This document shows, one piece after another, positions 21,164 through 35,632 of a DNA stretch of 64,000 bases. The stretch lies in assembly GCF_023612095.1 (NCBI RefSeq), contig NZ_CP086235.1, forward strand, positions 2,553,501 to 2,617,500, written 5' to 3'. The DNA is from Cytobacillus firmus. GTDB lineage: Bacteria > Bacillota > Bacilli > Bacillales > Cytobacillaceae. The notes below the pieces were generated by a model, which ran no database searches, was not told where the DNA came from, and saw only the letters and a program-made list of their open reading frames with translations. Position 1 is the first letter of the stretch. Each line of letters begins with the position of its first letter. The position numbers and the translations under genes are program-made.

Positions 21164-22501
21164 TTAATAAACTGCTGTCTCTAATCTTTTGAGGAGCCTC
21201 TTTATGCTGGTGTTCGCTTCTTTTAAAACTATTTCTTTATCAACTGTATTCAGCTTCCGTTTTTCCATCACCATTTTCCCGTTAACAATGGTGGATTCTA
21301 CGTCTGCACGAGTGGCTGAATAGACAATCCTCGAGATGGTATCGATATCAAAAGACGGATAGACATGAAAATCATTCAGATTAAGGATAGCAAGATCTGC
21401 TTTCTTTCCGGGCTCCAGACTTCCGATTTCCTGTTCCATTCCAACTGCTTTAGCACCGCCGATCGTCGCCATTCTGAAGACGGTTCTCGCGTTCATTGCT
21501 GTTGGGCCGTGCACAGGCTTCTGAATGATGGCAGCCAATCTCATTTCATTGAACATATCCAGATTGTTATTGCACGGAGCCCCATCAGCACCAAGGCTGA
21601 CAAATGCCTGCTGATCCAATAAGGAAGGAATCTCTGCCACACCAGATGCCAGCTTCAGATTGGATCCCGGACAATGGCTGACCTTTACGCCCCGCTCTTT
21701 GATGATTCTTTTTTCTTCTTCATTAAGCCAAACACAATGGGCCAGTATCAGCCTATCATTGGCAAGCCCTATGCTGTCCAGATAGACGACATTCCGCATG
21801 CCCAGTTCTCTTTCAACAAGGAGAATTTCATTGGCGTTTTCCGATGCATGAGTATGGACCCTCACGTTATATTGTGCAGAGAGATCCCTGACATTTGTAA
21901 GCAATTCCTCTGTGCAGGAAACGACAAATCGGGGACAGAATGCATATTGTATACGACCGTTATCACGATTGTGCCATCTTTCAAGGAGATCCACGCTTTG
22001 CTGGATGGATTTGGAGGTATTTTCTCTTAACGGAACAGGGACCTCATCCCCTTTATCCATCATGACCTTTCCGGCAAGTGCTCGTATGCCGCTTTCAGCA
22101 ATGGCTTGAAAGGCATATTCGGTATGATTCACGGTTTCCATGTCCACTACAGTTGTAGTTCCGCTCTGGAGCAATTCGCCAATTCCGAGCATGGCAGAAT
22201 AATAGATGGACTCTTCATCATGTGATGCCTCCAGCGGCCAGATCTTTTGCTTCAGCCAATCAAGAAGCTCCAAATCATCAGCCTGCCCGCGGAATAATGT
22301 CTGGCACAAATGGATATGTGTCTGAATAAATCCAGGAATGACTGTCTTTCCGCTGGCATCGATTACTTTATCCGCTTGATGTGTTAAGTTCTGTCCAATT
22401 TGGGCAATGCGGTCATCTACAATATATAAATCTCCGAAAATGATTTCTTCAGCTGCATTCATTGTTATAATTTCAGCGTTTTTTATAAGAATACTGCTCA
22501 A
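21164..22501 (-). CDS. SsnA/AtzA-type amidohydrolase (last gene of the BMC operon)
   Basis: 445 residues of the metal-dependent amidohydrolase superfamily, chlorohydrolase/SsnA/guanine-deaminase branch. Metal ligands: 'HIHLCQ' (about residue 62), 'HTHASENANE' (about residue 218), 'LAHCVWL' and 'GADGAPCNN' (Asp near 305). TTG start with GGAGGAAG upstream, overlapping the M20 gene stop (TTGA). Family members deaminate aminated heterocycles or hydrolyse imidazolones (HutI is related). In the proposed pathway it is a candidate for 4-aminoimidazole deaminase or imidazolonase; substrate is inference. Confidence 0.82.
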   Translation of the reverse strand: MSSILIKNAEIITMNAAEEIIFGDLYIVDDRIAQIGQNLTHQADKVIDASGKTVIPGFIQTHIHLCQTLFRGQADDLELLDWLKQKIWPLEASHDEESIYYSAMLGIGELLQSGTTTVVDMETVNHTEYAFQAIAESGIRALAGKVMMDKGDEVPVPLRENTSKSIQQSVDLLERWHNRDNGRIQYAFCPRFVVSCTEELLTNVRDLSAQYNVRVHTHASENANEILLVERELGMRNVVYLDSIGLANDRLILAHCVWLNEEEKRIIKERGVKVSHCPGSNLKLASGVAEIPSLLDQQAFVSLGADGAPCNNNLDMFNEMRLAAIIQKPVHGPTAMNARTVFRMATIGGAKAVGMEQEIGSLEPGKKADLAILNLNDFHVYPSFDIDTISRIVYSATRADVESTIVNGKMVMEKRKLNTVDKEIVLKEANTSIKRLLKRLETAVY

Positions 22502-23670
22502 TTTCTTCCTCCCCCTTGCATTGGAGTGACTTCTGAAGGCACAAGCTTTCCATATGACATAATAAGCTGTCTGTAAAACTGAATGGAGCGCTGATATGCC
22601 GCCAGACTAACCCACTCATTTGGCTGATGCGCCAGCTTTTCATCACCCGGGCCATAAATCAAGGTAGGAATTTCACTCCTTGGATTAAGTACGGCACCAT
22701 CTGTATAGTAGGACACCCCGTAATGGTCCGCTTCCGATTCGCCCTTTACCATCTGCGCAATTTGAATAATGTCCCGGGCTGGATCAGTTAAAATAGATGG
22801 ACGATCAAGAAGGGTTTCAACACTGTATTTAAAAATTTCACCCTGATCCAATAGAACATCCAGTTTGGATTTTAGCTTGTTTATAAAATGGGAATGGGAT
22901 TGAGGGGGAACTGTTCGAATATCTGCTCTGATGCTGCATTTATCTGGAATGACATTGGTCTGCACTCCGCCTTCAATCATGGTAACAGCCAGGCTGCTTT
23001 CTCCGAGGGGCTTCTTTTCTGTCTTCCATTCAATTTTCATTTCATCCAATACCCGGATTATTTTCAGCATATGATCTACTGCATTGATTCCCTGTTCCGG
23101 CATCGAACCGTGAGAGGTTTTTCCATAGGCCGTAATCTCAAGCCAAAGAGCTCCCTTATGGCCAATCACAATTTTTTCATTTGTCGGTTCGGCAATGACA
23201 AGTGCATCTATTTTTCGGCCATCATTTTCTTTTAAAAATGCCCTGGCACCACAGCTGTCGACTTCTTCCCCGGCAGTTGCCAAAAAGGTAACGCCAGCAG
23301 TCGGAACAGTATTGGTGAGATACAGCTCCTCCAAAGCCAGGAACATTGCTGCAAGCCCGCTTTTCATATCAGAAGCGCCTCTGCCATATATCCGTCCATT
23401 TGCGATTTCCCCTGAAAAAGGGGAGTGTACCCATTCTCCTGTCCCAGGTGAAACCGTGTCCATATGGCCGCATAAGAATAGCTGTTTACCGCTTTTTCCG
23501 GGAAGCGTAACTTCAAAATTGCTTCGGGTCTCATCAAGCATGGTCACCTGAAAAGGCAGACCTTTTTCTTTGCATCTATTAATAAAAGCTTCGGTCACTA
23601 AATGTTCGTTTCCGGGCGGATTGGAGCTGTCAATTTGGAGCAGATGCTGAAGAAACTGAATATCATTCAT
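22498..23670 (-). CDS. M20-family metallohydrolase (ArgE/DapE-type)
   Basis: 390 residues. 'CGHMDTVSPG' (metal His and Asp near residue 70), 'YGRGASDMKSG', 'AGEEVDSCGA' (catalytic Glu-Glu), and 'KTSHGSMPEQG' in the dimerisation lid. ATG with GGAGGCGG upstream, overlapping the DUF1989 stop by four bases. The family cleaves amide or amidine bonds of amino-acid derivatives, and YgeY in enterobacterial purine gene clusters is a relative. In context it could act on a late intermediate such as formiminoglycine; that is inference. Confidence 0.82.
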   Translation of the reverse strand: MNDIQFLQHLLQIDSSNPPGNEHLVTEAFINRCKEKGLPFQVTMLDETRSNFEVTLPGKSGKQLFLCGHMDTVSPGTGEWVHSPFSGEIANGRIYGRGASDMKSGLAAMFLALEELYLTNTVPTAGVTFLATAGEEVDSCGARAFLKENDGRKIDALVIAEPTNEKIVIGHKGALWLEITAYGKTSHGSMPEQGINAVDHMLKIIRVLDEMKIEWKTEKKPLGESSLAVTMIEGGVQTNVIPDKCSIRADIRTVPPQSHSHFINKLKSKLDVLLDQGEIFKYSVETLLDRPSILTDPARDIIQIAQMVKGESEADHYGVSYYTDGAVLNPRSEIPTLIYGPGDEKLAHQPNEWVSLAAYQRSIQFYRQLIMSYGKLVPSEVTPMQGGGRN

Positions 23671-24293
23671 GAATCCGCCTCCATAATTTGCATTTTAATA
23701 GGAGTCACTTTATATCCATTTACAGGAGCCATGTCCTGGGAACACGTTGTACAGGCAATGACAACATCACACAGTGCTTTCAGCCTTATGTAATCACCAG
23801 GCTTGGAAAGGGGTTCTGCAATGACATAATCCCCCGCATCATCAAGGACATTATTCATAAAGATATTAATAGGATCCGGAATAACTGAAGGATGAATATT
23901 ATACTTTTTCAGTGCATCCGCAATATTATCGTGGCAATTAGGGTGGTCCTCCTTGTCGAAATCAACTTTGTAGCGGTAATAATCACATGCCGGAAAGAAG
24001 AAATCATGTTTTCCAACAGTATCTTCCAGCACTTGCATTAATGGACGGCGGCGGTTGCTGTATAGCCAGTCTCCCGTTTTAAGCCGTATGCTGCTTAGTG
24101 AAGCCCGCATATGGACAGGTGAAACATGTTCTCCGGGATCTTCATAGTTAAAGCAGACAAAGTCCCCAACCTGTTTTCCTTCCATATCTATAATAATCAG
24201 CTCTTCTCCTTTGTGAATCAGGGCGCTTCTTCCTTCATACGGCGGAATAATAATTTCGTCCCGGATCTTGCCTTTGTTAAAAACCTCTTTCAT
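23667..24293 (-). CDS. DUF1989 (urea carboxylase-associated) protein
   Basis: 208 residues. 'DMEGKQVGDFVCFN' (about residue 36), a Cys in 'FFPACDYYRY' (about residue 103) and 'HPNCHDNIADAL' (about residue 117), and 'PVNGYKVTPIKMQI' at the end are typical of DUF1989. Some members with this fold are carboxyguanidine deiminases, that is, they act on C=NH amidine groups. An amidine substrate such as formiminoglycine would fit, but nothing proves it. Translation overlaps the next gene. Confidence 0.75.
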   Translation of the reverse strand: MKEVFNKGKIRDEIIIPPYEGRSALIHKGEELIIIDMEGKQVGDFVCFNYEDPGEHVSPVHMRASLSSIRLKTGDWLYSNRRRPLMQVLEDTVGKHDFFFPACDYYRYKVDFDKEDHPNCHDNIADALKKYNIHPSVIPDPINIFMNNVLDDAGDYVIAEPLSKPGDYIRLKALCDVVIACTTCSQDMAPVNGYKVTPIKMQIMEADS

Positions 24294-24314
24294 TTAGAAC
24301 ACCAGCCTTTGTTG

Positions 24315-24998
24315 TTATTCAATGAAAACTGCAACCGCACGAATCGGAGATCCCGTTCCTTTCCGAATTCTGAGAGGGAGTCCGAAATATAGAAATCGCA
24401 TGCCTGCGACCTGGTCGAGATTGCAGAGATTTTCCGTATTGGTTATTCCGTATTCACGGCAAATGAGATGTCCGGAGTACTTTGGATCATCCGGATGGTC
24501 AATAGCCGGGGCATCAATACCTATATTAACTGCACCTTTATCAGCCAGCCATTTTGCAGCCTGATAATCCAGGCCAGTATACGTTGTGAGCCATTTATCA
24601 GTACCATAAGACCGATTGTAGTGGCCGGTATAGAGGAGGACGATATCACCTTTTTCAATAAACTGCTGTGAGTTCCTCAGTGCATCCTCGAGATCACGGT
24701 CTGTAATATATTGATGGGGCTGGATGTGGGATACATCAAGGCAAACTGCCGACCCATAAAAATACTCTAGCGGCATTTCATCGATGTATTGGCCGTTTGG
24801 ATCATATTCATAAGTTGCATCACTATGAGTTGGACCATGTTCATTGATTAATAGATTATTAGTTGCAAACATGAAACCAATTTGCTTTTCACTTTCTTCG
24901 TGGGAGATATTCGGGAAGATCATTGTTTTCTGATGAAGGGGAAAAACAGGCATCCCCTGATATATTTCCTGCGTTAAATCGACAAGCTTTACTCCCAT
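24315..24998 (-). CDS. Cyclase/KynB-type metal-dependent hydrolase
   Basis: 227 residues, AAGGAGG before ATG. 'VDLTQEIYQGMPVFP' at the N-terminus and 'NEHGPTHSDATYEYD' (about residue 53), a variant of the HxGTHxDxPxH metal motif, place it in the cyclase family (PF04199) that includes kynurenine formamidase. Conserved 'IGIDAPAIDHP' lies near residue 160. Such enzymes hydrolyse formamides and cyclic amides, so hydrolysis of 4-imidazolone is a reasonable candidate role. It lacks an obvious encapsulation peptide. Confidence 0.78.
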   Translation of the reverse strand: MGVKLVDLTQEIYQGMPVFPLHQKTMIFPNISHEESEKQIGFMFATNNLLINEHGPTHSDATYEYDPNGQYIDEMPLEYFYGSAVCLDVSHIQPHQYITDRDLEDALRNSQQFIEKGDIVLLYTGHYNRSYGTDKWLTTYTGLDYQAAKWLADKGAVNIGIDAPAIDHPDDPKYSGHLICREYGITNTENLCNLDQVAGMRFLYFGLPLRIRKGTGSPIRAVAVFIE

Positions 24999-25057
24999 GG
25001 TATTCCTCCTTAACCTGCTGTTTATATCAAAAGCGGCAGAGACCGCCGCTTAGATGA

Positions 25058-26869
25058 TCAATTAATAATGGTCGGGATAACCTCAAACTTATCTACATCA
25101 ATAAGCCCCATATCTGTAATTTTCCATTTCGGGCTTGTTACCAATGACCAGAATGATAAATGCATAAAGGGAACTTCCATACCGCAGCCAAGAACTTCTT
25201 TAGCAAGATGCGATAATTCGTCGACCTTCTCACTCATTTCTTTTCCAGTTAATTCATCTGTCATTAAACCGCCAATCCGGAGAGGAAGATCACCTACTAC
25301 TTTGCTATCCTTTATCATGGCTATTCCGCCATCCATGGCAATGACACGGTTAACCGCCATGGCCATATCTACGTAGTTAGTTCCTGTTACAATAATATTA
25401 TGTGTATCATGAGCAACGCTTTCTGCTATAGCTCCGCTTTTCAGATCAAAGCCATGAAGAAACGTCTTGCCGATTTTTCCTGTTCTGCCGTGGCGTTCAA
25501 CTACCAGCAGCGGCAGCACATCCTGCTTTAAGCACGGCTGCACAATGCCGTCTTTGACATTCAGCATATATTCGCTGCCGCCAGTTAAGTTCTGGAAAGG
25601 TATCGCTTCAATTGCCCTTACTTTTGCACGGCTTCCTGGAGCTTCAATGGCGAGTTCCTTCACTGTTACAGGCTTCCGCTTCACTGACTTTTTCACACTT
25701 TCCGGATATATGTAAGGAGCAATATCTATAGTTAATTCGCCTTTTTCAGCTGCTTTTTTCCCTGCCAGGTATACCTGATCAATTGTCATATTGTTCAGAT
25801 CGCTGATCACGACGACATCTGCTCTTTTGCCTGGTGCAATTACCCCCACATCCTTAAAGCCAAAGTGGGTGGCAGGATTAATGGTCGCCATTTGGATGGC
25901 TTCCACTGGATCAATCCCAACTGCAATGGTTCGGCGGACGATATCATTCATATGTCCGTAATTTAACAGATCAGCAGGCACCATATCGTCCGATACAAGG
26001 ATTGCACGGCGGGAATCCAGCCCATCCTCTGTAATGGCCCTGATGCAATCTGCCATATTTCGCTGGGAAGAGCCTTCACGCATGAACACACTTACGCCAT
26101 TGCGAAGCTTTTCGACCGTTTCTTCTTTCGTCGTAGTTTCGTGGCATGACACATGGTTGCCTCCGCTGATTATATGTGCGGCAAGCTCTTTGCCAAACAA
26201 TCCCGGCGCGTTCCCTTCGACCGTTTTCCCAATGCTGTTTGCATATGAAACTGCGGCAACAAGGTCGTCTATTAATTCCGGGGCATGCTCATATACCGGA
26301 CCGATATTGCTGAAACTTTGGATTTCCCCAATGCCCTGTACATATGGGTCTGCCAGGAGCTCTTTCATATCCTTTGATGTCACATCAAAACCGGATGTTT
26401 CAAGACCTGGAGCATCAGGAACAGCACAAGGCACCGTGAATAATACCCGGTTTGGAAGTGTCTTAGCTTCTTCAATCATTGCCTGCATCCCGTGAACACC
26501 CAGGACGTTCCCTATTTCATGCGGATCTCCTATCAGCGTGGTGGTTCCTGTCGGAATGGATAGCTTAGAGAATTCCGTACAAGTCAGCATCGCACTCTCA
26601 AAATGCATATGAGAATCAATGAACCCTGGACAAACGAATTTACCCTGAATGTTTTCCACTGCCGTTTTGGGTCCAATTAAGTCTTTTGCGTCTCCTGCCA
26701 TTAAAATGTATTCGCCTTTCATCGCAACGTCTGCTACATAGATCTCACGGGTGATCACATTAATGAAGTATCCCCCTTTCAGAACTACATCAGCATACTG
26801 GCTGGAATCAAGCAACACATCAATAAGCTTGCGGTACTGCACTGCCTTTTTGATATTTTTTGCATCCAT
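25058..26869 (-). CDS. Adenine deaminase-family amidohydrolase inside the BMC operon
   Basis: 603 residues of the Ade family. 'GFIDSHMHFESAM' (about residue 81) and 'GDPHEIGNV' are family hallmarks, followed by 'VSCHETTTKEE', 'LVSDDMVPADLL' and 'ESVAHDTHNIIVTG'. Start ATG 26869 with GGGGG upstream, directly after the shell pentamer gene. It is longer at the N-terminus than the second homologue at 43308-45050 and clearly diverged from it. It may deaminate adenine or a smaller amino-imidazole; its place next to shell genes favours a cargo enzyme. Confidence 0.8.
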   Translation of the reverse strand: MDAKNIKKAVQYRKLIDVLLDSSQYADVVLKGGYFINVITREIYVADVAMKGEYILMAGDAKDLIGPKTAVENIQGKFVCPGFIDSHMHFESAMLTCTEFSKLSIPTGTTTLIGDPHEIGNVLGVHGMQAMIEEAKTLPNRVLFTVPCAVPDAPGLETSGFDVTSKDMKELLADPYVQGIGEIQSFSNIGPVYEHAPELIDDLVAAVSYANSIGKTVEGNAPGLFGKELAAHIISGGNHVSCHETTTKEETVEKLRNGVSVFMREGSSQRNMADCIRAITEDGLDSRRAILVSDDMVPADLLNYGHMNDIVRRTIAVGIDPVEAIQMATINPATHFGFKDVGVIAPGKRADVVVISDLNNMTIDQVYLAGKKAAEKGELTIDIAPYIYPESVKKSVKRKPVTVKELAIEAPGSRAKVRAIEAIPFQNLTGGSEYMLNVKDGIVQPCLKQDVLPLLVVERHGRTGKIGKTFLHGFDLKSGAIAESVAHDTHNIIVTGTNYVDMAMAVNRVIAMDGGIAMIKDSKVVGDLPLRIGGLMTDELTGKEMSEKVDELSHLAKEVLGCGMEVPFMHLSFWSLVTSPKWKITDMGLIDVDKFEVIPTIIN

Positions 26870-26872
26870 TTA

Positions 26873-27151
26873 TTAACCCCCTGTTTCCATTCCTTCTACA
26901 CTGTCAATAATTCCGATTATGGCAGCATCGATAGGTGCATCTTTATTCTGAACCGCTCTTGATGCCATGCTACCAGTCACATAGATGACTTTCTCGCCAA
27001 TGCCGGCACCAACAGTATCAACGGTTATAATGGGGTTTGGTAACATTGAGCCGTCCAATCCTACAGGCTGGGTAATTAATAATTTTGTACCCACCAGATT
27101 ATCATCTTTTCTAGTGGCAGTTACACGGCCAACCACGATTCCCATTTGCAT
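26873..27151 (-). CDS. BMC-P pentameric vertex shell protein (EutN/CcmL family)
   Basis: 92 residues. 'GIVVGRVTATRKDDNLVGTK' at the start and 'DTVGAGIGEKVIYVTGS' (about residue 44) are diagnostic of the EutN/CcmL/PduN family, which caps the vertices of microcompartment shells. 'DAAIIGIIDSVE' ends the fold. RBS AGGGGTAGG precedes ATG 27151. It is the only pentamer in the operon. With three BMC-H genes it provides the minimum parts for a closed shell. Confidence 0.92.
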   Translation of the reverse strand: MQMGIVVGRVTATRKDDNLVGTKLLITQPVGLDGSMLPNPIITVDTVGAGIGEKVIYVTGSMASRAVQNKDAPIDAAIIGIIDSVEGMETGG

Positions 27152-27157
27152 AAAGAC

Positions 27158-27895
27158 CTACCCCTTAATGTAAATAATTTCGATCTTAAGTTCCTTTGCT
27201 GTATCTTTTGCCAGGGGGGTTATGATAGCCCCTTTTGGAACAGTCAGCTGATCATGATTGTTCAAATAGGCAAACCGGACTGTCTCCTCGGATATAACCG
27301 TTTTCTTAATTTGATGAACAGCAAATTCTGCCCTATCATTTAAATCTATTAATCTGATGCCAAGCAGCTTCAGCTCTGCCATCTGCTGATTGAGCTTTCT
27401 TTTTAATAGGTCCGGACCTTTATCCAATCCTTTCAGTTTCCAATACTGGCTGAAAGGATCACCTCCAGCCTTCAAAGCCGTGACCCGTTTCCCTTTTAAT
27501 AAACCCATTAGGATGATCTGCACCAATGGCCTTTGTTCGTTAAGATTCAATAGATCTGCTATTAAAGAAAAAGATAGAATTGGCAAAAGAATTTCATCAA
27601 AATGATCAAGAAGCTGATCATTGATCATGGAAGCAGAGATCCAATCGTCATTCCCGGTCAGAGAAACTAACTCCTCAAGCGGAAATTGGGTCAGCATTTC
27701 TTCTTCTGCAGCCATTCTAAGTGTAATATCTTCCTCTGTTAGCTTTTTTAAGTAAGAAAATCCCGGATCCATTCCTATCAAATGAGAGGTTAATAGAGCC
27801 AGGACATGAGGTTTTCTGTCTCTGCAGTTTTCATTTCGCATATAAAGCGCCTGCAGAGTGTTTTTCGCCATAACACTCTGCTTTTTGCTCCTCAT
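27158..27895 (-). CDS. BMC-associated flavoprotein-like protein with an EutT-like tail motif
   Basis: 245 residues, not confidently named. The middle ('ILLPILSFSLIADLLNLNE' to 'LKGKRVTALKAGGDP', about residues 100-145) resembles a flavoprotein (PF02441-like) fold, the family that contains UbiX and dipicolinate synthase B. The C-terminus 'LTVPKGAIITPLAKDTAKEL' resembles a short motif seen in several BMC-locus proteins such as EutT. It lies between BMC-H and BMC-P genes with 2- and 6-base spacings. A role as cargo or flavin-handling partner of the UbiD system is possible but unproven. Confidence 0.5.
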   Translation of the reverse strand: MRSKKQSVMAKNTLQALYMRNENCRDRKPHVLALLTSHLIGMDPGFSYLKKLTEEDITLRMAAEEEMLTQFPLEELVSLTGNDDWISASMINDQLLDHFDEILLPILSFSLIADLLNLNEQRPLVQIILMGLLKGKRVTALKAGGDPFSQYWKLKGLDKGPDLLKRKLNQQMAELKLLGIRLIDLNDRAEFAVHQIKKTVISEETVRFAYLNNHDQLTVPKGAIITPLAKDTAKELKIEIIYIKG

Positions 27896-27897
27896 GT

Positions 27898-28182
27898 TTA
27901 TTCACCGATATTTTTTGATAAAAGAGCTCTTTCAACTTCGCTGTGCGGTCTCGGAATGACATGTACCGAGATCAGTTCTCCTACTCTGCTGGCAGCTTCG
28001 GCTCCAGCATCGGTCGCAGCTTTAACCGCTCCCACATCTCCTCTGACCATAACTGTTACAAGACCGAATCCCACCTTTTCATATCCGCAGATCTCCACAT
28101 TTGCTGCTTTAACCATTGCATCCGCTGCCTCTACTGCGCCGACAAGGCCTTTCGTCTCGATTAATCCCAATGCTTCACCCAT
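27898..28182 (-). CDS. BMC-H hexameric shell protein
   Basis: 94 residues, RBS AAGGAGG. A single BMC domain (PF00936) with '[20 protein letters not shown]', '[17 protein letters not shown]' and '[12 protein letters not shown]', very like EutM/PduA. The pore loop reads 'KVGFGLV', with Phe where EutM-type proteins have Ser ('GSGL'), which would narrow or make more hydrophobic the central pore. It is the most canonical of the three hexamers and probably the main facet protein. Confidence 0.93.
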
Positions 28183-28205
28183 TGTGTGTTTCCTCCTTAA
28201 GATTA

Positions 28206-28619
28206 TTAAACTGATGGTTTATCATTATCATTATCGTCAGGTTCATTTTGTTTTTTTGCTTGCTTTTTTTCATGTGTCTTTTCAACGGATTTAACCTCTT
28301 TTTCAGCACCTGCTTCCGAATGCATGTCTTTCAGTTTGAAATTCGGAAGCAGCTTCCCTGCCACTTCACTGTGTGCACGCGGGATGACATGAGCAGAAAT
28401 TACTTTTCCTATTCTCTCTGCTGAACTCACACCGGCATCGACTGCAGACTTTACAGCCGCCACATCACCGTTGAAATGGATTGTGACGCCAAGGTAGCCA
28501 TCCACTCCTATTACTTTTTCAATTCCTACAATTTCTACATCTGCTGCTTTTACGGCTGCATCTGCTGCAGAAACTGCTGTTGAATAACCAACGGTTTCAA
28601 TCAAACCCAATGCTTGCAA
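28206..28619 (-). CDS. BMC-H shell protein with a charged C-terminal extension
   Basis: 137 residues from TTG 28619, which has GGAGGAGG upstream. Residues 1-90 form one BMC domain ('[20 protein letters not shown]', '[11 protein letters not shown]') with an unusual pore region '[14 protein letters not shown]'. The last 45 residues are Lys/Glu/Asp-rich and probably disordered ('[18 protein letters not shown]'). Similar tails on shell proteins (PduK-like) can anchor cargo or control shell assembly. The tail has no Cys, so no iron-sulfur site is expected. Confidence 0.88.
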
Positions 28620-28800
28620 CTGAAGAATCCTCCTCCTATGAAATTATCAGACCGGCTAAATTTTCAGGAATTAATGAGCTGATCTGCAACTGTGCTGCTG
28701 ACCAAGCCTTATTTAATCCTGTCGAACTCCTTACAAAGCAGATCCGTGATCCGGGATACCTCATCAAACTGTCCGTGAAGAAGCAAATAGTTTTTCTCTA

Positions 28801-29667
28801 TCAAAAATTTGATTTGTTCTTCCGTATTTTTTTCATGTGCCGGTCAAGGAGCAAAATGCTGGAATAATAGTCGATTCCTTCAATGACAGCGACACCGCCA
28901 ATTGACGAGTTTAGTCCCAATTGTTTTGTAAGCCATGGACTGGGGGACTTTTCTTTATGCGCTGTAATCGTTTTAAATTTTTTTTGGGAAAGTTTTTTAA
29001 AGAAGCTCTTTAAAGCGTTTAACAGTAATCCATCATCCTCTTCATAAAGCTCCAGCGAAAAGGATTGCCCGCTGTTTTTGTCCCAAGACAGGCAATATCT
29101 TAAAGAAGGAAACTCTCTTAAAAGGTCATTCAGTAAAAAAAGCTGTCCGGGCGTACATTTCTCTGAAGTAACTACCCCGATTGAGGCTGTTTTTAATTCC
29201 CGCTGAAAGGAGCCTTCCAATGTGGGATGAAGATCTGAGAACAGCCAGACTTTAACACCCTCCGGAGTTTGTCCGATAAGTTGGCTTTCTCTAACATTTC
29301 GGCCGGGTTTTGTTTCAGCGGATTCAGCGCTGCCAGAAGCCCTCTGTTTCCCTTGAACCAGGGACAGGGTCTGAAGCTGTGCAATTTTTTCTTTAGCAGA
29401 AGGCGTAGGTGAAGAAAGTGAAACTGTCTGCCTCCTAAAGTTTGGTTGTGGATTAGCAGCCTGGGGCGGGTCTGCATGCTTAACAGCTATTCTTTTATTC
29501 ATTTTTTCTTTCTGATAATTTGGCCGGCTGATGCCCGGTATACCCGACTCCAATCCCGGCTTGCGGCGGGGCGGGGAAAAATTGGCAGCTCCCTTAATAG
29601 GATTCATTTTTTGCTTGCTGTAGGGCTTCATCACTTCTTCTACAACACTTTTAATAAAGTCAGACAC
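28801..29667 (-). CDS. Possible BMC scaffold/cargo protein with N-terminal encapsulation-type helix
   Basis: 288 residues, family not recognised. It begins with an amphipathic helix 'MSDFIKSVVEEVMKPYSK', like encapsulation peptides. A basic, Pro/Ser/Gln-rich linker (about residues 20-130) follows, then a folded domain (about 135-280; 'VKVWLFSDLHPTLEGSFQ', 'LGLNSSIGGVAVIEGIDYY'). The frame stops at 28801, but adding one A to the A7 run at 28827-28833 would extend it by about 35 residues to 28709 ('IEKNYLLLHGQFDEVSRI'). It lies between two BMC-H genes. Confidence 0.5.
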   Translation of the reverse strand: MSDFIKSVVEEVMKPYSKQKMNPIKGAANFSPPRRKPGLESGIPGISRPNYQKEKMNKRIAVKHADPPQAANPQPNFRRQTVSLSSPTPSAKEKIAQLQTLSLVQGKQRASGSAESAETKPGRNVRESQLIGQTPEGVKVWLFSDLHPTLEGSFQRELKTASIGVVTSEKCTPGQLFLLNDLLREFPSLRYCLSWDKNSGQSFSLELYEEDDGLLLNALKSFFKKLSQKKFKTITAHKEKSPSPWLTKQLGLNSSIGGVAVIEGIDYYSSILLLDRHMKKIRKNKSNF

Positions 29668-29699
29668 ACATTATGCACCTCCACTTATGGAACATCTTC

Positions 29700-29963
29700 T
29701 TATAGAATTTTGCGAAGTTCTGAATGAGGGCGGGGTATCACATTAGCCGAAACCAGTTCTCCTCCAGCCACAGTATGAGCAGTCTTCCCAACCTCAACAG
29801 CAGCTGTGACCGCCGCCACATCCCCTTCAATAATGACGGTGATAAGTCCGGATCCGACTCTCTTTAAATCAACTAAGCTGACATTTGCTGCTTTTGCCAT
29901 TGAGTCCAGCGCTGCAATAGCTGCTGTCAAGCCTCTTGTTTCTATTAAGCCAATTGCCTTCAT
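29700..29963 (-). CDS. BMC-H hexameric shell protein
   Basis: 87 residues, a bare BMC domain. 'MKAIGLIETRGLTAAIAALD' at the start, 'RVGSGLITVIIEGDVAAV' carrying a canonical Gly-Ser-Gly pore loop, and '[10 protein letters not shown]' at the end. It is the first shell gene of the operon, 25 bases after the UbiD stop. It differs from the 27898 hexamer mainly in the pore, so the shell should present at least two kinds of pore. Confidence 0.93.
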   Translation of the reverse strand: MKAIGLIETRGLTAAIAALDSMAKAANVSLVDLKRVGSGLITVIIEGDVAAVTAAVEVGKTAHTVAGGELVSANVIPRPHSELRKIL

Positions 29964-29988
29964 TTTTGACCTCCTCTACTGCAAAAGC

Positions 29989-31326
29989 TTAAAGATAGTC
30001 TTCAAGATTCACTTCAATGGGGATTGAAGTTCTTTTAAATAACTCTTCTTTTCCAAGCGGATAGGTTGCATCGATGCCCATCTTATCACTGACTCCTTTT
30101 AAATGATGGGAAGACTCGAGCGGTGATCCCTTCGCACCCTGTACGATGAAAATATCATCCCCCGCCTGCACTCTTGTCGCTATAGCCCACTCAACATCAT
30201 CCGAATCAAAGATATCGACGTCATCATTCACAACAACCACATGCTTTAAATCCTTATCACTTGCAAAAGCTGCAAGTGCCGCCTGTTTTCCGTCACCATC
30301 ATGTTTCTTTTCAATTTGTATGACTGCATGATAGCGGGCGACACCGCCCATCGGAATATGTACAGCTTTGATATTTGGAACAACCTGCCTGACGGTGCTA
30401 AAAAGGGTGGCTTCCCTGACAAGCGCCATTGGCAGCCTTTCTTCATAGCTTGATGGAAAAATAGTCTGTGAGATAGCGTTATTCCGGTAAGTAACGGCTG
30501 AAAATTCTACTATCGGCTGTGGCGTTCTGGTGCCATAATAACCGGCCAGTTCGCCAAACGGCCCTTCCAGTTCTCTTTCAAATGGCAGCATTTTGCCTTC
30601 CAGAACGATTTCCGCTTCAGCCAGTACTTCCAAATCCACTGTTTTGCACTGAACAACATCAAGAGACTGGCCAAGCAATGCACCTGCTACATCCAATTTG
30701 TCGGTATGGTACAAATGCGTACTGATCTGTGAACTTAGGACAACAGCTGGAACAACACCAAACATAACAGCCACTTCCATCGGTTCGCCGATGCTTTCAT
30801 AATGGGCATATTGCTCCATCAGTTCCGGAGAGGTTATAAGAATATTTGTTCGATTACCGCCAAGGTATTGCATCCTGCGAATCGACGTATACCTCTTTTT
30901 GCCGGACAAGTCTTTAACTACCAGAATTCCTGCTACATAATAAGCACCTGAGTCATCTGCATGATAGGTTGGGATAGGAAACAAATCTGCCAGATCGAAT
31001 TCTCCGGTCACAAGATTCTCCTGAACAGGACCAGTTTGCCTTAAAGTTGTTGGAATAGGATTAACAATGGATTCGATGATTTTAGGAATAAGTTCAGATG
31101 AGGTGATTCCCATGCTGTCTGCCGTCAGATCTCTGTCCCCTCCCAAACCGGCAGCCATGGAAGATTGATAGCCTTTGATTCTATCAAATAAAAAAGGCTG
31201 TGTTCCATTTTTCGTATTAATCACTGCTCCCAGTTCATAGAGAGGGTCCACTTCTTTTTTCACCCGATGAAGAAGCCCCCTGCTTTCCCATCTATCAAGC
31301 AAACCCCTCATTGTTACAGGGTTCAT
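29989..31326 (-). CDS. UbiD-family prenyl-FMN-dependent decarboxylase
   Basis: 445 residues from ATG 31326 (GGGGGAAAAGG upstream); the open frame extends further but only inside ubiX. 'RRMQYLGGNRTNI' (about residue 145), 'FERELEGPFGELAGYYG' (about residue 255, with the catalytic acidic residues) and 'FPSSYEERLPMALVREA' are UbiD hallmarks. UbiD enzymes decarboxylate aromatic or unsaturated acids using the cofactor made by UbiX. It overlaps ubiX by 32 bases. In context the likely substrate is 4-amino-5-imidazolecarboxylate rather than a quinone precursor; substrate is inference. Confidence 0.87.
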   Translation of the reverse strand: MNPVTMRGLLDRWESRGLLHRVKKEVDPLYELGAVINTKNGTQPFLFDRIKGYQSSMAAGLGGDRDLTADSMGITSSELIPKIIESIVNPIPTTLRQTGPVQENLVTGEFDLADLFPIPTYHADDSGAYYVAGILVVKDLSGKKRYTSIRRMQYLGGNRTNILITSPELMEQYAHYESIGEPMEVAVMFGVVPAVVLSSQISTHLYHTDKLDVAGALLGQSLDVVQCKTVDLEVLAEAEIVLEGKMLPFERELEGPFGELAGYYGTRTPQPIVEFSAVTYRNNAISQTIFPSSYEERLPMALVREATLFSTVRQVVPNIKAVHIPMGGVARYHAVIQIEKKHDGDGKQAALAAFASDKDLKHVVVVNDDVDIFDSDDVEWAIATRVQAGDDIFIVQGAKGSPLESSHHLKGVSDKMGIDATYPLGKEELFKRTSIPIEVNLEDYL

Positions 31327-31909
31327 GCCTTTTCCCCCATCTCTCCAAGAGCTCATGGTCAATATCCAGCATGTCCAATATCCTCGCCACCATAAAGTTG
31401 GCCAACTCCCAAATTTCGGTCGGCTTATGGTAAAAGCCTGGTGATGCAGGCATAATGCATGCACCGCTCTCAGCAAGAAGAGTCATATTGCGCAGATGAA
31501 TCAAATTAAAAGGAGCTTCTCTCGGAACAATAATAAATTTTCTATTCTCTTTTAAAACCACACTGGCAGCCCTGCTTAGAAGTGTATCGCCGACCCCGTT
31601 CGCAATCGCACCCAATGTATTCATCGAACATGGCACAATCACCATTCCATCTGTTTTAAAGGAACCGCTGGCAACTGCAGCGAAAAGATTCCGGTTGCTG
31701 TGGATAGCGGCATACTCCTTCAGCTCGTCCATCTTGACCCCGCATTCAAATTGCATGACTTTTTCTCCCATCTCCGTAGCAATTAAATGCGTTTCGATCT
31801 CTAATTGATGAAGAGCGCGGATCAGTGTATATGCATACAATGATCCGCTTGCCCCGGTTATGCCCACTAAAATACGTTTTTTCCTTGGAACTGATGAAGA
31901 GTTAGACAA
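31295..31909 (-). CDS. ubiX: UbiX-type flavin prenyltransferase
   Basis: About 204 residues from TTG 31909, which overlaps the end of the isochorismatase gene; no strong RBS, so translational coupling is likely. 'VGITGASGSLYAYTLI' is the FMN-binding start, and 'VPCSMNTLGAIANGVGDTLL' and 'IVPREAPFNLIHLRNM' are the diagnostic UbiX blocks. It makes prenylated FMN for the adjacent UbiD. The pairing of both genes inside a shell-protein operon suggests the cofactor is made for this one decarboxylase. Confidence 0.88.
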   Translation of the reverse strand: MSNSSSVPRKKRILVGITGASGSLYAYTLIRALHQLEIETHLIATEMGEKVMQFECGVKMDELKEYAAIHSNRNLFAAVASGSFKTDGMVIVPCSMNTLGAIANGVGDTLLSRAASVVLKENRKFIIVPREAPFNLIHLRNMTLLAESGACIMPASPGFYHKPTEIWELANFMVARILDMLDIDHELLERWGKRHEPCNNEGFA

Positions 31910-32492
31910 CTGATTCGTCTTGGGAGAATTTCTTTTTAGCCAGTTCTTTGTATTCTTCTGTAGATAATATATCTCCGAAAATGTCAATGTCTCTTAGGCC
32001 TGATACGTGCATATCATCATCCTGTGAAGCAGTGGCATCTGATACGCAAATCACATTATAGCCATGATACAAGGCATCAGAGGCGGTACTGCGTACACAT
32101 ACATTGGTCCAGACTCCAGTAAGGACGACCGTATCAATTTCTTCTTCTCTGAGGAAGAGATCAAAATCGGTATAGCTGAATGCACTATGCCGCCTCTTTT
32201 GGACCACATAATCTCCTTTGCTCTCATCCGGCTGAAGTTCTGGAATGAATTCCGAACCCCAGGTTCCCTTTATGGCATGGACAGGTCTTACACGGAAATC
32301 ACGGTCATTCTTTCTGTGAGCCTCCTGAACATGAACAACCTGTATATTGTGATCATGAGCAAATTCAATAAGTTCTTGAATTTTAGGAACAATTTTTTCT
32401 CCATTTTCACACCTTAATGCTGCTTTTTCGCCGATAAAGTCGTTTAACATATCAATAATGACTACACAGTGTTTTTTTCCCCTAAGTTCCAC
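31902..32492 (-). CDS. Isochorismatase-fold amidase (ureido hydrolase type)
   Basis: 196 residues. The catalytic triad of the cysteine-hydrolase family is complete: Asp14 in 'VIIDMLNDF', Lys99 in 'VQKRRHSAF' and Cys132 in 'GVWTNVCVRST', with the cis-peptide before Val. It is closer to N-carbamoylsarcosine amidase, RutB and biuret hydrolases than to isochorismatase. Such enzymes remove the carbamoyl group from ureido compounds. Between a ring-opening hydantoinase and a decarboxylase, it is the natural candidate to convert 4-ureido- to 4-amino-5-imidazolecarboxylate. Confidence 0.83.
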   Translation of the reverse strand: MELRGKKHCVVIIDMLNDFIGEKAALRCENGEKIVPKIQELIEFAHDHNIQVVHVQEAHRKNDRDFRVRPVHAIKGTWGSEFIPELQPDESKGDYVVQKRRHSAFSYTDFDLFLREEEIDTVVLTGVWTNVCVRSTASDALYHGYNVICVSDATASQDDDMHVSGLRDIDIFGDILSTEEYKELAKKKFSQDESVV

Positions 32493-32520
32493 TCCGTTCT
32501 GCCTCCCTCGATATAAATAG

Positions 32521-33981
32521 TTATTGCTGTGCTACAGGATCTTTAGTTTTCACATTTACCGCTTCATATTTTTCATACTTAAATGTTCTCTCAAGCCTCT
32601 GGATGCTTTGGCGCGGAACATACTCACCATATCCCGCTTCTCCGACAATCCCTTTGTCTTCTTCAAAGACCACGTTTCCGCGGATAATGGTCTGGACTGG
32701 CTTACCTTTTAGTTTCATGCCATGGAGCGGGTTGTATTTAGCCATTGATTCTGTTTTCTGCTCATCAATTACATATTCTTTTTCAAGATCGATAACCGTG
32801 AAATCTGCATCACTGCCAATTTCCATTGAGCCTTTCTTAGGGTAAATGCCATAATGGATGGCGGCATTTCGGCTCGTTACTTCTACAAATCTGGATAGTG
32901 ATAAGCGGCCTTTATTTAAGCCCTCACTGACAAGGATCGGCACCATCGTTTCTACCCCAGGGATGCCAGGGAAGGTGTTCCAGATCGTTGCACCTGGATA
33001 ATCCTTTTCGGTGGCAATTTCATATGGGGCATGGTCAGTTCCGACAAAGTCGATTGTTCCATCAGCCAGTGCCTGCCAGTGGGATTCGTTATCCTCTTTT
33101 CCACGCAGCGGAGGAGCAATCTTTGCATAGGAGCCCCGCTCTGACATGGAATCCTTAGCATTAAGGACAAGATAGTGAGGGCAGGTTTCAGCTGTAACCT
33201 TGACACCACGCTTCTTAGCAGCCTTAACCAGCTCGACGCCTTCCTTTGTGCTCATATGTACTACATGTACACGTGCGTCTGTAGCTTCCGCGAAGCTGAG
33301 AATCAGTTCAATGGCCACTTTCTCAGCGAGGCTTGAACGCGCTTCAGCCCATGCCGGTCCGTCAAGGCGGCCTTCTTTTTCAAGTTTCTTCGAATTGAAT
33401 GTGCAGATATCATAGTTTTCAGCATGAACACCAATCGGAAGACCGGTTTTTGCCACGTTTTTGAATATCTCCAGCATTTCTGCGTCAGATACTTTAGGGA
33501 AGGTAGGCACAGAAGGAGTCATATAAACTTTAAATGCAACAACTCCCTGGTCTATCTGAGGGTAAATATTATCAATCCAGCCTTCACGCGCATCTTCACC
33601 AGTCATGCCGCCCCAGAAGCAGTAATCAATATAAGCCTGATCTCTGATTGGTCCGATTTTTTTATTGAAGCTATCCCCATCGCGAACAGACGGCTTGCTG
33701 CAGCAAGGCATATCGATAATGGTCGTTAAGCCTCCGGCTGCTGCAGAACGGCTGCCGGTAGCAAATGTTTCTCTGTGAGTAAACCCGGGATCCATAAAAT
33801 GAGTATGTGGATCAATACAGCCTGGAACGACTAATTTCCCTTGAATATCAATGACCTTAGATGCATTCAGAAACGAAATGTCATTTGTGTAGCCGACAAT
33901 CTTTCCCTCGTTTACTAGTATATTCGTTAAAACCTGACGATCTCCCTGCGGAATATTTGCATTTTTCAGAATTAAATCCAT
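32521..33981 (-). CDS. Cyclic amidohydrolase (hydantoinase/dihydropyrimidinase/allantoinase family)
   Basis: 486 residues. Binuclear metal site: His59 and His61 in 'DPHTHFMDPG', carboxylated Lys151 in 'VAFKVYM', His186 in 'GVHAENYD', His242 in 'VHVVHMST', and Asp near 315 in 'GTDHAPY'. The family opens cyclic amide rings (hydantoin, dihydropyrimidine, allantoin). Next to purine genes and with an amidase, a decarboxylase and a xanthine-type permease, opening of the pyrimidine ring of xanthine is the most economical proposal; allantoinase would need uricase genes, which are not seen here. Confidence 0.85.
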   Translation of the reverse strand: MDLILKNANIPQGDRQVLTNILVNEGKIVGYTNDISFLNASKVIDIQGKLVVPGCIDPHTHFMDPGFTHRETFATGSRSAAAGGLTTIIDMPCCSKPSVRDGDSFNKKIGPIRDQAYIDYCFWGGMTGEDAREGWIDNIYPQIDQGVVAFKVYMTPSVPTFPKVSDAEMLEIFKNVAKTGLPIGVHAENYDICTFNSKKLEKEGRLDGPAWAEARSSLAEKVAIELILSFAEATDARVHVVHMSTKEGVELVKAAKKRGVKVTAETCPHYLVLNAKDSMSERGSYAKIAPPLRGKEDNESHWQALADGTIDFVGTDHAPYEIATEKDYPGATIWNTFPGIPGVETMVPILVSEGLNKGRLSLSRFVEVTSRNAAIHYGIYPKKGSMEIGSDADFTVIDLEKEYVIDEQKTESMAKYNPLHGMKLKGKPVQTIIRGNVVFEEDKGIVGEAGYGEYVPRQSIQRLERTFKYEKYEAVNVKTKDPVAQQ

Positions 33982-34011
33982 TTCTTCTGCCCCTATCTAT
34001 TAATTTGATTT

Positions 34012-34032
34012 CTGCCTCAATAATTGAGGCAG
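34012..34032 (-). other. Perfect inverted repeat between permease and hydantoinase genes
   Basis: CTGCCTCAA and TTGAGGCAG flank TAA. The 9-bp stem lacks a U-tract on the minus strand, so it is more likely an mRNA stability or processing hairpin, or a leaky terminator, than a full stop. Confidence 0.6.
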
Positions 34033-34051
34033 ATGGTTACAGCAGCTGCTA

Positions 34052-35380
34052 TTAAATCATTTCAGCTGAGTGATCTCCTTTCAGCTGTTCGATTCTTTCA
34101 GTTTCACTTATATTTAAATCTTTATAATTAAATACCAAATTTAATAAAATTGCTGTGATGCTTCCCAATACAATTCCATTTTCAACCAGCAGTCGTGCAC
34201 TTGTAGGCAGACTCTCAAAAATCTGCGGTACAACTGCTGAACCAAGTCCGATTCCTATTGAACAGGCAACAATCAGCAGATTTTCATTTTTGCTGAAATC
34301 CACTGCAGAAAGCATTCTGATTCCTGATGAGATAACCATCCCAAACATTGGAATCATGGCTCCACCAAGAACAGCCATAGGAATAATCGTAGTCAGAGCA
34401 GCCACTTTAGGCAAAAGGCCTAAAGTCATTAATATGACCCCAGCTGCGATAACAACATTTCTCGTTTTTACTTTAGTCAATGCTACCAGTCCCACATTCT
34501 GCGAAAAGGATGTATAAGGAAACGCGTTAAAAATGCCCCCTATAACAACAGCCAGTCCTTCTGCACGCAGCCCCTTTTTTATGTCTTTAGAGTCCAGCTT
34601 TCTCTCACAGACATCTCCGAGAGCGAGAAATACCCCAGTAGATTCAATCATGCTTACAATCGCTACTAAAGTCATCGTAAGGATGGCTGAGGCATTGAAT
34701 GTAGGAAATCCGAAATAAAACGGCTGAACAACATGAAACCAGGAAGCCTGGCTGACTTCGGCAAAGCTGACGAGCCCCATAAAATAAGCTGCTATTGTCC
34801 CGGCCACCAATGACAGCAGGACAGAGATCGCTTTCATGTAGCCTTTAAAAAACCTGTTCATTAAAATAATCAGCACCAGTGTAAATGCAGCCAGGAATAG
34901 ATTCTCCGAACTTCCATAATCAGGTGATCCCAGCCCGCCTGCAGCATTATTCATGGCGACAGGAATTAGTGATACCCCGATAATAGCGACGACTGAACCG
35001 GTAACGATCGGCGGGAAAAACCTCATAATTTTACTCATAAATTGTGATAGGATCATGACGATAATACCTGAAGCAATAATTGCTCCGTAAATGGCAGTAA
35101 TGCCCTGCAAATTCCCGATGGCAATCATCGGGCCGACTGCTGTAAAAGTACATCCCAGAATGACAGGCAGCCTAATGCCAAAATGCTTCCCCCCTATAAC
35201 TTGAAGCAATGTAGCAATCCCGCAGGTAAACAAATCAATCGATATTAAGTAAGCAAGCTGCTGGGCATTAAGCCCAATTGCCGGTCCCACAATCAGCGGT
35301 ACAATAACAGCACCTGCATACATGGCTAGCACATGCTGAAATCCCAAAGTCCCTACCTTCCAAGGATTTAGCTTTTCCAA
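34052..35380 (-). CDS. NCS2-family purine (xanthine/uric acid) permease
   Basis: 442 residues with 12 or more membrane helices. 'QHVLAMYAGAVIVPLIVG' (about residue 15), 'FTAVGPMIAIG' and 'NAFPYTSFSQNVGLVALTKV' (about residue 287), the nucleobase-ascorbate signature region, place it in the xanthine/uracil NCS2 group near PucJ/PucK/PbuX. TTG start with GGGGG upstream. As first gene of the unit it would import the purine that the downstream enzymes degrade. The long leader before it has an intrinsic terminator. Confidence 0.87.
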   Translation of the reverse strand: MEKLNPWKVGTLGFQHVLAMYAGAVIVPLIVGPAIGLNAQQLAYLISIDLFTCGIATLLQVIGGKHFGIRLPVILGCTFTAVGPMIAIGNLQGITAIYGAIIASGIIVMILSQFMSKIMRFFPPIVTGSVVAIIGVSLIPVAMNNAAGGLGSPDYGSSENLFLAAFTLVLIILMNRFFKGYMKAISVLLSLVAGTIAAYFMGLVSFAEVSQASWFHVVQPFYFGFPTFNASAILTMTLVAIVSMIESTGVFLALGDVCERKLDSKDIKKGLRAEGLAVVIGGIFNAFPYTSFSQNVGLVALTKVKTRNVVIAAGVILMTLGLLPKVAALTTIIPMAVLGGAMIPMFGMVISSGIRMLSAVDFSKNENLLIVACSIGIGLGSAVVPQIFESLPTSARLLVENGIVLGSITAILLNLVFNYKDLNISETERIEQLKGDHSAEMI

Positions 35381-35446: not shown

Positions 35447-35471
35447 CACCTCCCAAAAGAAATATTTGTAT

Positions 35472-35530
35472 AAAAAAAACCGCAGCAATAGAAAACATCA
35501 AAGTAAACCATAGATGTTCTATTACTGCGG
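35472..35530 (-). terminator. Strong terminator/attenuator in the leader of the BMC operon
   Basis: On the minus strand CCGCAGTAATAGAACATC (35530-35513) pairs with GATGTTTTCTATTGCTGCGG (35499-35480), about 18 bp with one small bulge, followed by TTTTTTTT (35479-35472). It lies after the DUF2294 gene and about 90 bases before the permease start, with no convincing promoter in between. An upstream GCGGT (35570-35566) could pair with ACCGC of the 5' arm (35531-35527) to form an antiterminator. Confidence 0.75.
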
Positions 35531-35632
35531 TCTCATCCAGCTTCCGTTAAACAAAAGACAAAGGAACCGCTCCTATATTCAGGTTTAAGAAAACTGCGTC
35601 ATGCACAGCTCTCCCAACATAATGTAAAACTA

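Follow-up and report, generated by a model that had tools for sequence, protein, structure and literature searches.

We analyzed a 64,000-nucleotide (nt) stretch of the Cytobacillus firmus genome (contig NZ_CP086235.1, positions 2,553,501 to 2,617,500; hereinafter the window), from a source genome of 4.38 Mb in a single contig, for a bacterial microcompartment (BMC) operon whose enzymes fit the breakdown of xanthine and for the RNA leader that precedes it. The unit comprises 16 tightly packed minus-strand genes at 21164-35380, running from pbuX (35380) to a gene for a DadD-like amidohydrolase (21164), and every named family in it is backed by clear Pfam or NCBIfam matches. A first-pass annotation, made from the sequence alone, had given about 15 genes; the actual number is 16, while the strand and the tight spacing were as described. 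The range drawn there covers the 16 genes but omits two attached features: an mpsC-like gene (PF10057, DUF2294; Pfam 4e-7) at 35633..35983 (-), which is the first gene of the unit, and a leader RNA at 35468..35582 (-), between mpsC and pbuX. The inventory of a permease, a ring-opening amidohydrolase, an amidase, UbiX/UbiD and shell genes was borne out by Pfam and NCBIfam, as were the five further C–N hydrolases, namely an Ade-like protein, a cyclase (PF04199), a DUF1989 protein, an M20 protein and the DadD-like protein.

The front of the operon is formed by pbuX (34052..35380, -), coding for an NCS2 xanthine permease (TIGR03173 1e-169, above cut-off), and by a hydantoinase-like amidohydrolase (32521..33981, -), allantoinase-like by its Pfam/NCBIfam matches, which is the candidate xanthine ring opener (a xanthinase of the XauA type); its metal site (H59, H61, K151, H186, H242, D316) is invariant in 55 rows. 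Next comes an isochorismatase-fold amidase (31902..32492, -; Pfam/NCBIfam; best PDB match 3hb7), a candidate 4-ureido-5-imidazolecarboxylate hydrolase with D14 and K99 invariant in 64 rows and C132 in 63 of the 64. The following pair is ubiX, for a flavin prenyltransferase (31295..31897, start inferred, -; TIGR00421 and NF004685 above cut-off), and ubiD, for a decarboxylase dependent on prenyl-flavin mononucleotide (prenyl-FMN) (29989..31326, start inferred, -; Pfam/NCBIfam), whose best PDB match, 6h6v, we take to be HmfF, a heteroaromatic-acid decarboxylase. The open reading frame (ORF) finder starts both UbiX and UbiD too early, and the UbiD length of 445 aa was set from homologues.

The four shell genes of the first-pass annotation resolve into three of the BMC-H type (PF00936) and one BMC-P (EutN/CcmL) vertex protein at 26873..27151 (-; PF03319 8e-29). 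The BMC-H genes lie at 29700..29963 (-; 3e-26), 28206..28619 (-; 7e-24; with a charged C-terminal tail) and 27898..28182 (-; 4e-30), the last coding for the most conserved protein of the locus, mostly at 80-100% identity among relatives. Since PF00936 in the genome amounts to these three single BMC-H genes, all in the operon, there is no BMC-T. Two further proteins without a Pfam match accompany the shell. The first, of 288 aa (28801..29667, -), has an amphipathic, encapsulation-peptide-like N terminus, and an N-terminal helix of this type is found in 17 of 21 sampled members of its family; it is likely a lumen scaffold. The second, of 245 aa (27158..27895, -), has a predicted UbiX/HFCD flavoprotein fold: its model (pLDDT 90.1) gives 45 PDB matches at E≤0.001 with UbiX on top, and its matches to TIGR02536 (9e-13) and PduM (9e-4) are weak and below cut-off. 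Our guess is that it may handle prenyl-FMN inside the shell. A metabolosome with aldehyde chemistry was considered and rejected: PF00171 (aldehyde dehydrogenase) is absent from the 16 scanned operon proteins, and neither phosphotransacylase nor alcohol dehydrogenase occurs among them.

Downstream of the shell genes lies the gene for the Ade-like amidohydrolase, here AdeL (25058..26869, -), which scores 466.2 bits against TIGR01178, just under the cut-off of 472.5, and is most likely the 4-aminoimidazole deaminase. It had been left as Ade-like or SsnA-like; the evidence favors an Ade-like protein in a clade of its own with changed active-site residues. First, a branch with 100/100 support splits AdeL from Ade in the tree. 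Second, Asn220 and Cys242 are found in 71/71 rows from shell loci; the tree set has 31 AdeL rows, including 6 without a shell, and every one of them carries both residues. Canonical Ade was sought through an Ade-type His/Asp at these two positions, and Asn/Cys was found instead; the equivalent residues, which we take to belong to the active site of Ade, are His plus Asp or Glu in three Ade rows of the tree set, and His plus Asp in 3nqb and in the window's own Ade. Third, a match at 56% identity or more was found in 13 of 398 Bacillota genomes, with the other matches listed at 42% or less. Behind AdeL, the cyclase-family hydrolase (24315..24998, -; Pfam, PF04199) is the likely 4-imidazolone ring opener; H54, H58, D60 and E64 are invariant in 68 rows, the position of Glu64 being presumably His in other family members. 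The operon continues with a DUF1989 protein (23667..24293, -; PF09347 4e-52), an M20 metallo-amidohydrolase (22498..23670, -; Pfam/NCBIfam) and the DadD-like amidohydrolase (21164..22501, -; NF005557 5'-deoxyadenosine deaminase 8e-221, above cut-off), a candidate purine/nucleoside deaminase that might feed the pathway.

Each of the five steps of the Rabinowitz route from xanthine to formiminoglycine thus has a candidate, as first proposed, with catalytic residues conserved in the ring opener, ureido-amidase, deaminase and cyclase. The earlier grouping of cyclase, DUF1989 and M20 at a single step held for the cyclase as likely imidazolone ring opener; DUF1989 and M20 more likely act on formiminoglycine. 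In the proposed scheme, PbuX would import xanthine, or it would arise outside the shell from hypoxanthine by xanthine dehydrogenase (XDH). Next, the hydantoinase would open the six-membered ring to give 4-ureido-5-imidazolecarboxylate, the isochorismatase-fold amidase would strip the carbamoyl group, and UbiD, with prenyl-FMN made by UbiX, would decarboxylate the product to 4-aminoimidazole. AdeL would deaminate this to 4-imidazolone, which the cyclase would open to formiminoglycine. With the tetrahydrofolate-dependent formiminotransferase (FTCD) missing in this Bacillaceae version, DUF1989 would deiminate formiminoglycine to N-formylglycine, which the M20 protein would split into formate and glycine. 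Taken whole, we propose with good confidence that the operon encodes a BMC in which xanthine would be broken down hydrolytically and without oxygen (the xanthinase or Rabinowitz route), with a folate-free ending and leader control. We computed gene content, conservation, residue changes, co-occurrence, leader structure and inner-hairpin covariation, took the pathway from the literature, and from these infer each substrate assignment, the shell content, the DUF1989/M20 chemistry and the regulator.

A divergent plus-strand block beside the operon (36147-45050) bears on the substrate. It holds an XDH operon (36426..41413, +; small, MocA-like, FAD (flavin adenine dinucleotide) and large subunits and XdhC; Pfam), in which the FAD subunit (37486-38394) was named from its sequence and blast matches, a second NCS2 purine permease (41902..43269, +; PF00860) and a canonical adenine deaminase (43308..45050, +; TIGR01178 679 bits, above cut-off). 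Before the XDH operon stands a purine riboswitch (36147..36244, +; RF00167 69.5 bits against a gathering threshold of 37), ON-type by its anatomy, in that the folded terminator takes the 3' strands of P1 and P3. It keeps the pocket residues U51 and C74 and has U in place of the conserved A at position 73, in what we take to be the standard purine riboswitch numbering; by eye, relatives have U there in 9 loci, A in L016 and L019, C in L027 and G in L036. A xanthine-II variant was ruled out for this riboswitch, U51 being kept. Uricase was found in 2 of the 51 genomes searched and not in that of the window, so here the route is no side branch of uric acid oxidation. With the xanthine permease, the XDH operon under a purine riboswitch, the adjoining adenine deaminase and NCS2 permease, and no uricase found, gene content supports a purine as the substrate.

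A UbiD profile fetched 79 loci (from the best 80 of 274 stretches), which span the Bacillaceae, Paenibacillaceae, Thermoactinomycetaceae, Sulfobacillus, Carboxydothermus and other Clostridia, together with an Acidaminococcales metagenome-assembled genome (MAG) and a Calditrichales genome. Of the 79, 71 carry BMC-H as well as the Ade-like gene, far beyond chance, and UbiX, UbiD, the shell genes and AdeL are kept together in nearly all loci; Siminovitchia (Bacillus) fordii DSM 16014 (L033) has the gene order of the window from the hydantoinase on. In the relatives' maps ubiD and adeL flank the shell genes, with front and back ends that vary, and such a bracket is expected if the enclosed intermediate is 4-aminoimidazole. 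Most likely, the shell would enclose UbiD and AdeL, with the reactive 4-aminoimidazole handed over inside. Retention of this compound had been suggested in the first-pass annotation; the location of the shell genes, flanked by ubiD and the deaminase gene, makes it plausible, but the existence of shell-less relatives keeps it from being established. Separately, two Cytobacillus-like loci, L007 (labelled Paenibacillus sp. FSL R5-0490) and L024 (Pseudomonas sp. ISL-84), have pbuX genes 99% and 94% identical to that of the window, and their labels look wrong. An ANTAR-domain protein, another antitermination-type regulator, occurs in or next to some loci (L028:6133-6663 by Pfam; the same cluster in L062 and L071).

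Several observations pull the other way. At the level of the enzymes, the hydantoinase barely reaches the allantoinase model TIGR03178 (358.1 against 357.85 bits), while it passes the broad TIGR00857, with the other models listed (best 25 of 59) below cut-off; AdeL nearly attains the adenine deaminase model TIGR01178 and, compared with shell-less AdeL, its N terminus is not extended by a targeting sequence. At the level of genomes, Thermosyntropha (L075, L077, and G220 with the same UbiD) has the set of hydantoinase, isochorismatase-fold and ubiD genes in a genome free of BMC domains, with a UbiD that nests on a long branch among the shell-type UbiDs, and AdeL with the cyclase occurs without nearby shell genes in 5 sampled genomes (Clostridia), with FTCD nearby in 4. 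Such relatives imply that the shell is optional and that the chemistry does not need it. In Moorella (L078/G268), UbiD is found at 46-47% identity with two AdeL copies, a cyclase and FTCD, with BMC genes elsewhere in the genome; no hydantoinase orthologue was found there.

The front end also varies. Hydantoinase and amidase are inside the operon in most Bacillaceae loci, and in 12 Paenibacillus genomes, including P. ihuae (G033), a hydantoinase orthologue (62-64%) lies outside it. At L049 a creatininase-family gene, ECF-type transporter genes and another isochorismatase-fold gene replace the hydantoinase (L049:4902-9396); the creatininase cluster (c34) recurs in L042, L049, L050, L051, L053 and L056, with ECF genes in 4 of these 6. 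The genomes of L042, L049, L050, L051 and L056 have only hydantoinase paralogues at 31-35%, and the Acidaminococcales MAG only fragments, so that the substrate could differ in these five creatininase-type genomes and the MAG, a further point on the opposing side. Purine genes stand beside other variants: a nucleoside hydrolase (L043), PucR (L073) and adenosine deaminase (L071). P. ihuae (G033) has two BMC loci, L053 and L080, one per front-end type.

The creatininase-type variants and the marginal score of the hydantoinase against TIGR03178, next to its pass of the broad TIGR00857, would suit a substrate other than xanthine, that is, another purine-derived or N-heterocyclic compound, with the hydantoinase acting on allantoin, a dihydropyrimidine or a hydantoin. 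We hold this to be very improbable for the window, where the xanthine permease and XDH operon adjoin and no uricase was found in the genome to make allantoin; moreover, no role of UbiX/UbiD or AdeL in the hydrolysis of allantoin or pyrimidines is known, and a cluster for the xanthinase pathway has been identified in Bacilli according to PMC12507026.

The proposed ending on DUF1989, as candidate formiminoglycine deiminase, and M20, as candidate N-formylglycine deformylase, rests on a phyletic pattern. The M20 residues H69, D71, D101, E135, E136 and E161 are present in 46/46 rows and H348 in 45, with one gap. A search for FTCD_N covered 51 genomes, 49 of them with a BMC locus, and did not find it in that of the window. 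Among those with DUF1989 in the BMC locus, FTCD is absent from 41/41 (40 plus the window genome), whereas it is present in 8/8 where DUF1989 is not in the locus stretch, absence being scored in that stretch only and L062, L065 and L072 being cut by contig ends. The two searched genomes without a BMC locus are Thermosyntropha, with neither FTCD nor DUF1989, and Moorella, with FTCD. This complementarity suggests a folate-free deiminase/deformylase ending, in which formiminoglycine would pass through N-formylglycine to glycine and formate.

Part of the pattern is explained by lineage, as FTCD is rare in Bacilli, and on the same side there are loci with DUF1989 in which no M20 was found, namely those of Fictibacillus and many of those of Paenibacillus. 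The DUF1989 family, moreover, includes carboxyguanidine deiminases (PMC11271267). The pathway could thus be the same with a different back end, DUF1989 and M20 acting on another intermediate (e.g., a carbamoyl or ureido by-product) while an unrelated enzyme elsewhere hydrolyses formiminoglycine. To this we assign a probability somewhat short of even, in view of the split between 0/41 and 8/8 and of a switch within the Bacilli-type clade: Sulfobacillus and WH4, which nest in it, have FTCD and no DUF1989 in the locus. The reverse is seen in the Acidaminococcales MAG, which has DUF1989 and in which FTCD was not found, the branches there being long and the MAG small and maybe incomplete.

We then turn to the leader RNA, which scores 75.5 bits in the window against covariance model R1. 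An antiterminator stem GCGGUU/GACCGC surrounds a small hairpin with a UUNAA loop and is followed by a terminator hairpin (~35534-35472); across the aligned leaders the stem is GCGGUU/AACCGC around a hairpin with a UUNAA or UUNA loop. As the terminator reuses the AACCGC of the antiterminator, the two structures are mutually exclusive. No Rfam family matches the leader, the best match reaching 22.5 bits against a gathering threshold of 60. In alignment A5 (25 distinct rows), which was fitted to the model and leans towards it, 96.0% of cells pair against 35-51% in slid controls, and both-sided changes occur at 6 of the 14 pairs, of which 5 belong to the inner hairpin. In the unfitted alignment A3, paired cells and covariation score exceed those of 500 shuffles (0/500). 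Against the proposed fold, the both-sided pairs (3) and pair types (12) of A3 do not rise above the shuffles (109/500 and 241/500), and the antiterminator stem hardly varies (one row both-sided), so that covariation supports the inner hairpin and not that stem.

Model R2, searched over 38 genomes, has matches in 22. At E≤2e-4, 30/30 matches precede purine genes, namely pbuX or hydantoinase/BMC operons, a purine-permease-like gene (c38), xdhS and ncs2b, with ade2 following in 4 of the 6 ncs2b cases; among the 8 weaker matches are 3 antisense copies and one apparently false hit (L175). Thus, on structure and genomic context, transcription of the BMC operon is predicted to be under an attenuator leader in which antiterminator and terminator compete. 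Between the terminator and pbuX there is also a 12-codon ORF (MPFLKKLEQAMA) with a good ribosome site at 35446-35408 (-).

The same hairpins might be only the terminator of mpsC, with the BMC operon driven by a promoter of its own behind it. A terminator after a gene is ordinary, and in most loci at least 79 nt separate it from the first gene. In 15 loci, however, only 29-63 nt lie between the end of the terminator and the next gene, whose start was taken from tblastn, which leaves little room for a promoter. The element also stands before xdh, ncs2b, permease and hydantoinase operons away from mpsC, with the 30/30 purine association noted above; in L052 and L074, where mpsC-ubiX has moved 10-12 kb off the BMC operon, it lies directly before ubiD; and its inner hairpin covaries. 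We judge a mere mpsC terminator to be unlikely and set it aside in favor of the attenuator.

What reads the attenuator is a separate question, and a link to the gene just upstream emerged from co-occurrence. mpsC is present in 55 of 71 BMC loci and 10-12 kb away in 2 more; the model of its product (pLDDT 90.7) has no clear PDB match. By a uniform rule applied to the 71 loci, the leader element is found in 47/55 with mpsC and in 2/16 without (L052, L074). As these two have mpsC 10-12 kb upstream, 0/14 loci without mpsC have the element, with absence in L042, L065 and L070 judged at the locus and not genome-wide. In the 33 genomes searched for both, R2 matches in 17/24 with an MpsC orthologue and in 0/9 without, the nine being four Fictibacillus, a fifth with a 36% paralogue only, B. 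timonensis, Sulfobacillus, Carboxydothermus and the Calditrichales genome.

Attenuator-like leaders were also seen, by eye, after DUF2294 paralogues of the window genome and of three others. For 69 PF10057 genes, drawn from the best-scoring matches, a terminator (≤-15 kcal/mol) and then a same-strand gene follow in 44/69, against 54/383 control ORFs; restricted to same-strand gaps of 80-450 nt, the terminator follows 41/51 DUF2294 genes against 96/389 controls. Because the controls were drawn from the BMC-related loci that had been fetched, and the sequences share ancestry, p-values overstate independence. Antiterminator pairing in DUF2294 leaders is suggestive only: at least 6 bp in 18/40 against 10% when shuffled, and at least 5 bp in 29/40 against 31%. 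Given that DUF2294 genes across Bacillota are often followed by attenuators, they form a candidate antiterminator family.

Some of the data run counter to this. The element is missing by the uniform rule from 8 of the 55 loci with mpsC (L028, L034, L035, L040, L049, L050, L051, L053), of which L028, L034, L035 and L040 match R1 on the sense strand and L049, L051 and L053 have a short hairpin by eye. The next ORF starts inside the hairpin in 5 of the 44 DUF2294 loci counted, and L234, a DUF2294 gene of the window genome, is followed by only a weak hairpin (-15.2) with no antiterminator.

Alternatively, the leader may be a riboswitch that binds a purine directly, with MpsC uninvolved. The residues C20, U33, U34 and G50, unpaired yet conserved in 26/26, are what such a riboswitch might display; further, the window's XDH operon carries an ON-type purine riboswitch where others have the leader (the element is at that place in L034 and L035), a hint that both read purine supply. 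Its association with mpsC, both across BMC loci (47/55 against 2/16, those 2 with mpsC 10-12 kb upstream) and across genomes (17/24 against 0/9), and the other attenuators that DUF2294 genes elsewhere precede, make direct binding possible but somewhat doubtful. In the scheme we prefer, the attenuator would probably be read by the DUF2294 protein encoded just upstream, responding to a purine. By extension, DUF2294 (MpsC) might be a new family of RNA-binding antiterminators in Bacillota, many of them encoded upstream of an attenuator whose antiterminator stem they would stabilize, the window member sensing a purine and switching on a purine regulon (the BMC operon, xdh, permeases and adenine deaminase). 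We advance this tentatively, at only slightly less than an even chance.

Other DUF2294 contexts may be recorded here. Across 20 DUF2294 loci, Rfam gave at E≤0.1 a single family, the c-di-AMP riboswitch, which precedes the DUF2294 gene of L233. In L183 and L185 the DUF2294 gene is followed by a long structured leader resembling a molybdenum-cofactor-type RNA, with no Rfam match for L185. By eye, DUF2294 leaders stand before genes for archaeal-type phosphoenolpyruvate carboxylase-like proteins (L211, L212, L216, L227) and SbtA-like transporters (L193, L201, L213).

If the proposed scheme is true, a BMC that shields a labile aromatic amine and not an aldehyde would represent a third kind of compartment chemistry, and the locus would offer a version of the xanthine BMC in a cultivable genus. 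The DUF1989/M20 swap predicts a folate-free end to a purine breakdown of the anaerobic type. The leader, seen before purine operons in several Bacillaceae genera, would give DUF2294 a function and may point to further regulons.

Among known systems, Tong et al. 2023 reportedly describe, in their abstract, four hydrolases of different families together with a prenyl-FMN decarboxylase. According to PMC12507026, which cites that work, the cluster for the xanthinase pathway was recently identified in Clostridia and Bacilli, and the xanthinase is slow; the window shares with it the oxygen-independent hydrolytic breakdown of xanthine and the Clostridia/Bacilli setting. The BUF locus type was named by Axen 2014 as lacking all metabolosome core enzymes (PMC4207490). 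Ravcheev 2019 laid out the xanthine pathway (Xau) gene by gene, including Bacillus fordii DSM 16014 and Bacillus sp. 2_A_57_CT2, with the formiminotransferase XauG reported as missing from the cluster in these two Bacillus genomes (PMC6620236), and a 2021 survey equates BUF1 with Ravcheev's type and lists Bacillus sp. 2_A_57_CT2 (PMC8156839). Given the BUF1/Xau and xanthinase papers, the headline finding was already known. The first-pass view that a Bacillaceae version with UbiD is little studied does not hold, the pathway idea being in print with Bacillus genomes included (PMC6620236, PMC12507026).

The window locus resembles BUF1/Xau in combining a shell with genes for a ring-opening hydrolase, an amidohydrolase, an isochorismatase-type protein, a decarboxylase and a deaminase, and in having no aldehyde dehydrogenase. 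It differs in that Axen's description includes BMC-T, of which the window genome has none, and in that it is without FTCD and adds DUF1989, M20, the UbiX-fold protein, mpsC and the leader RNA. In histidine catabolism, formiminoglutamate has a hydrolytic route through HutF and HutG, a deiminase and then a deformylase. The predicted ending follows the same logic in place of a formiminotransferase, but with other families, and its substrate would be formiminoglycine. The carboxyguanidine deiminase CgdAB (PMC11271267) shares with the window protein the Pfam family DUF1989 and the deimination, and differs in substrate and genomic setting. With the purine riboswitch RF00167 and its variants (PMC9295807), the leader shares antiterminator/terminator control of purine genes; unlike them, no three-way junction is seen in it, none of the Rfam models matches it, and its distribution follows that of a protein gene. 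The terms 'DUF1989', 'riboswitch' and 'attenuat' do not appear in the main text of PMC6620236. Thus, the xanthine reading of the operon is probably right and the locus a member of the published type; four elements go beyond print, as far as found by a literature search not aimed at DUF2294 or attenuators: first and foremost the leader with its DUF2294 partner, and further the ending predicted to be folate-free, the signature residues of AdeL and the relatives that have no shell.

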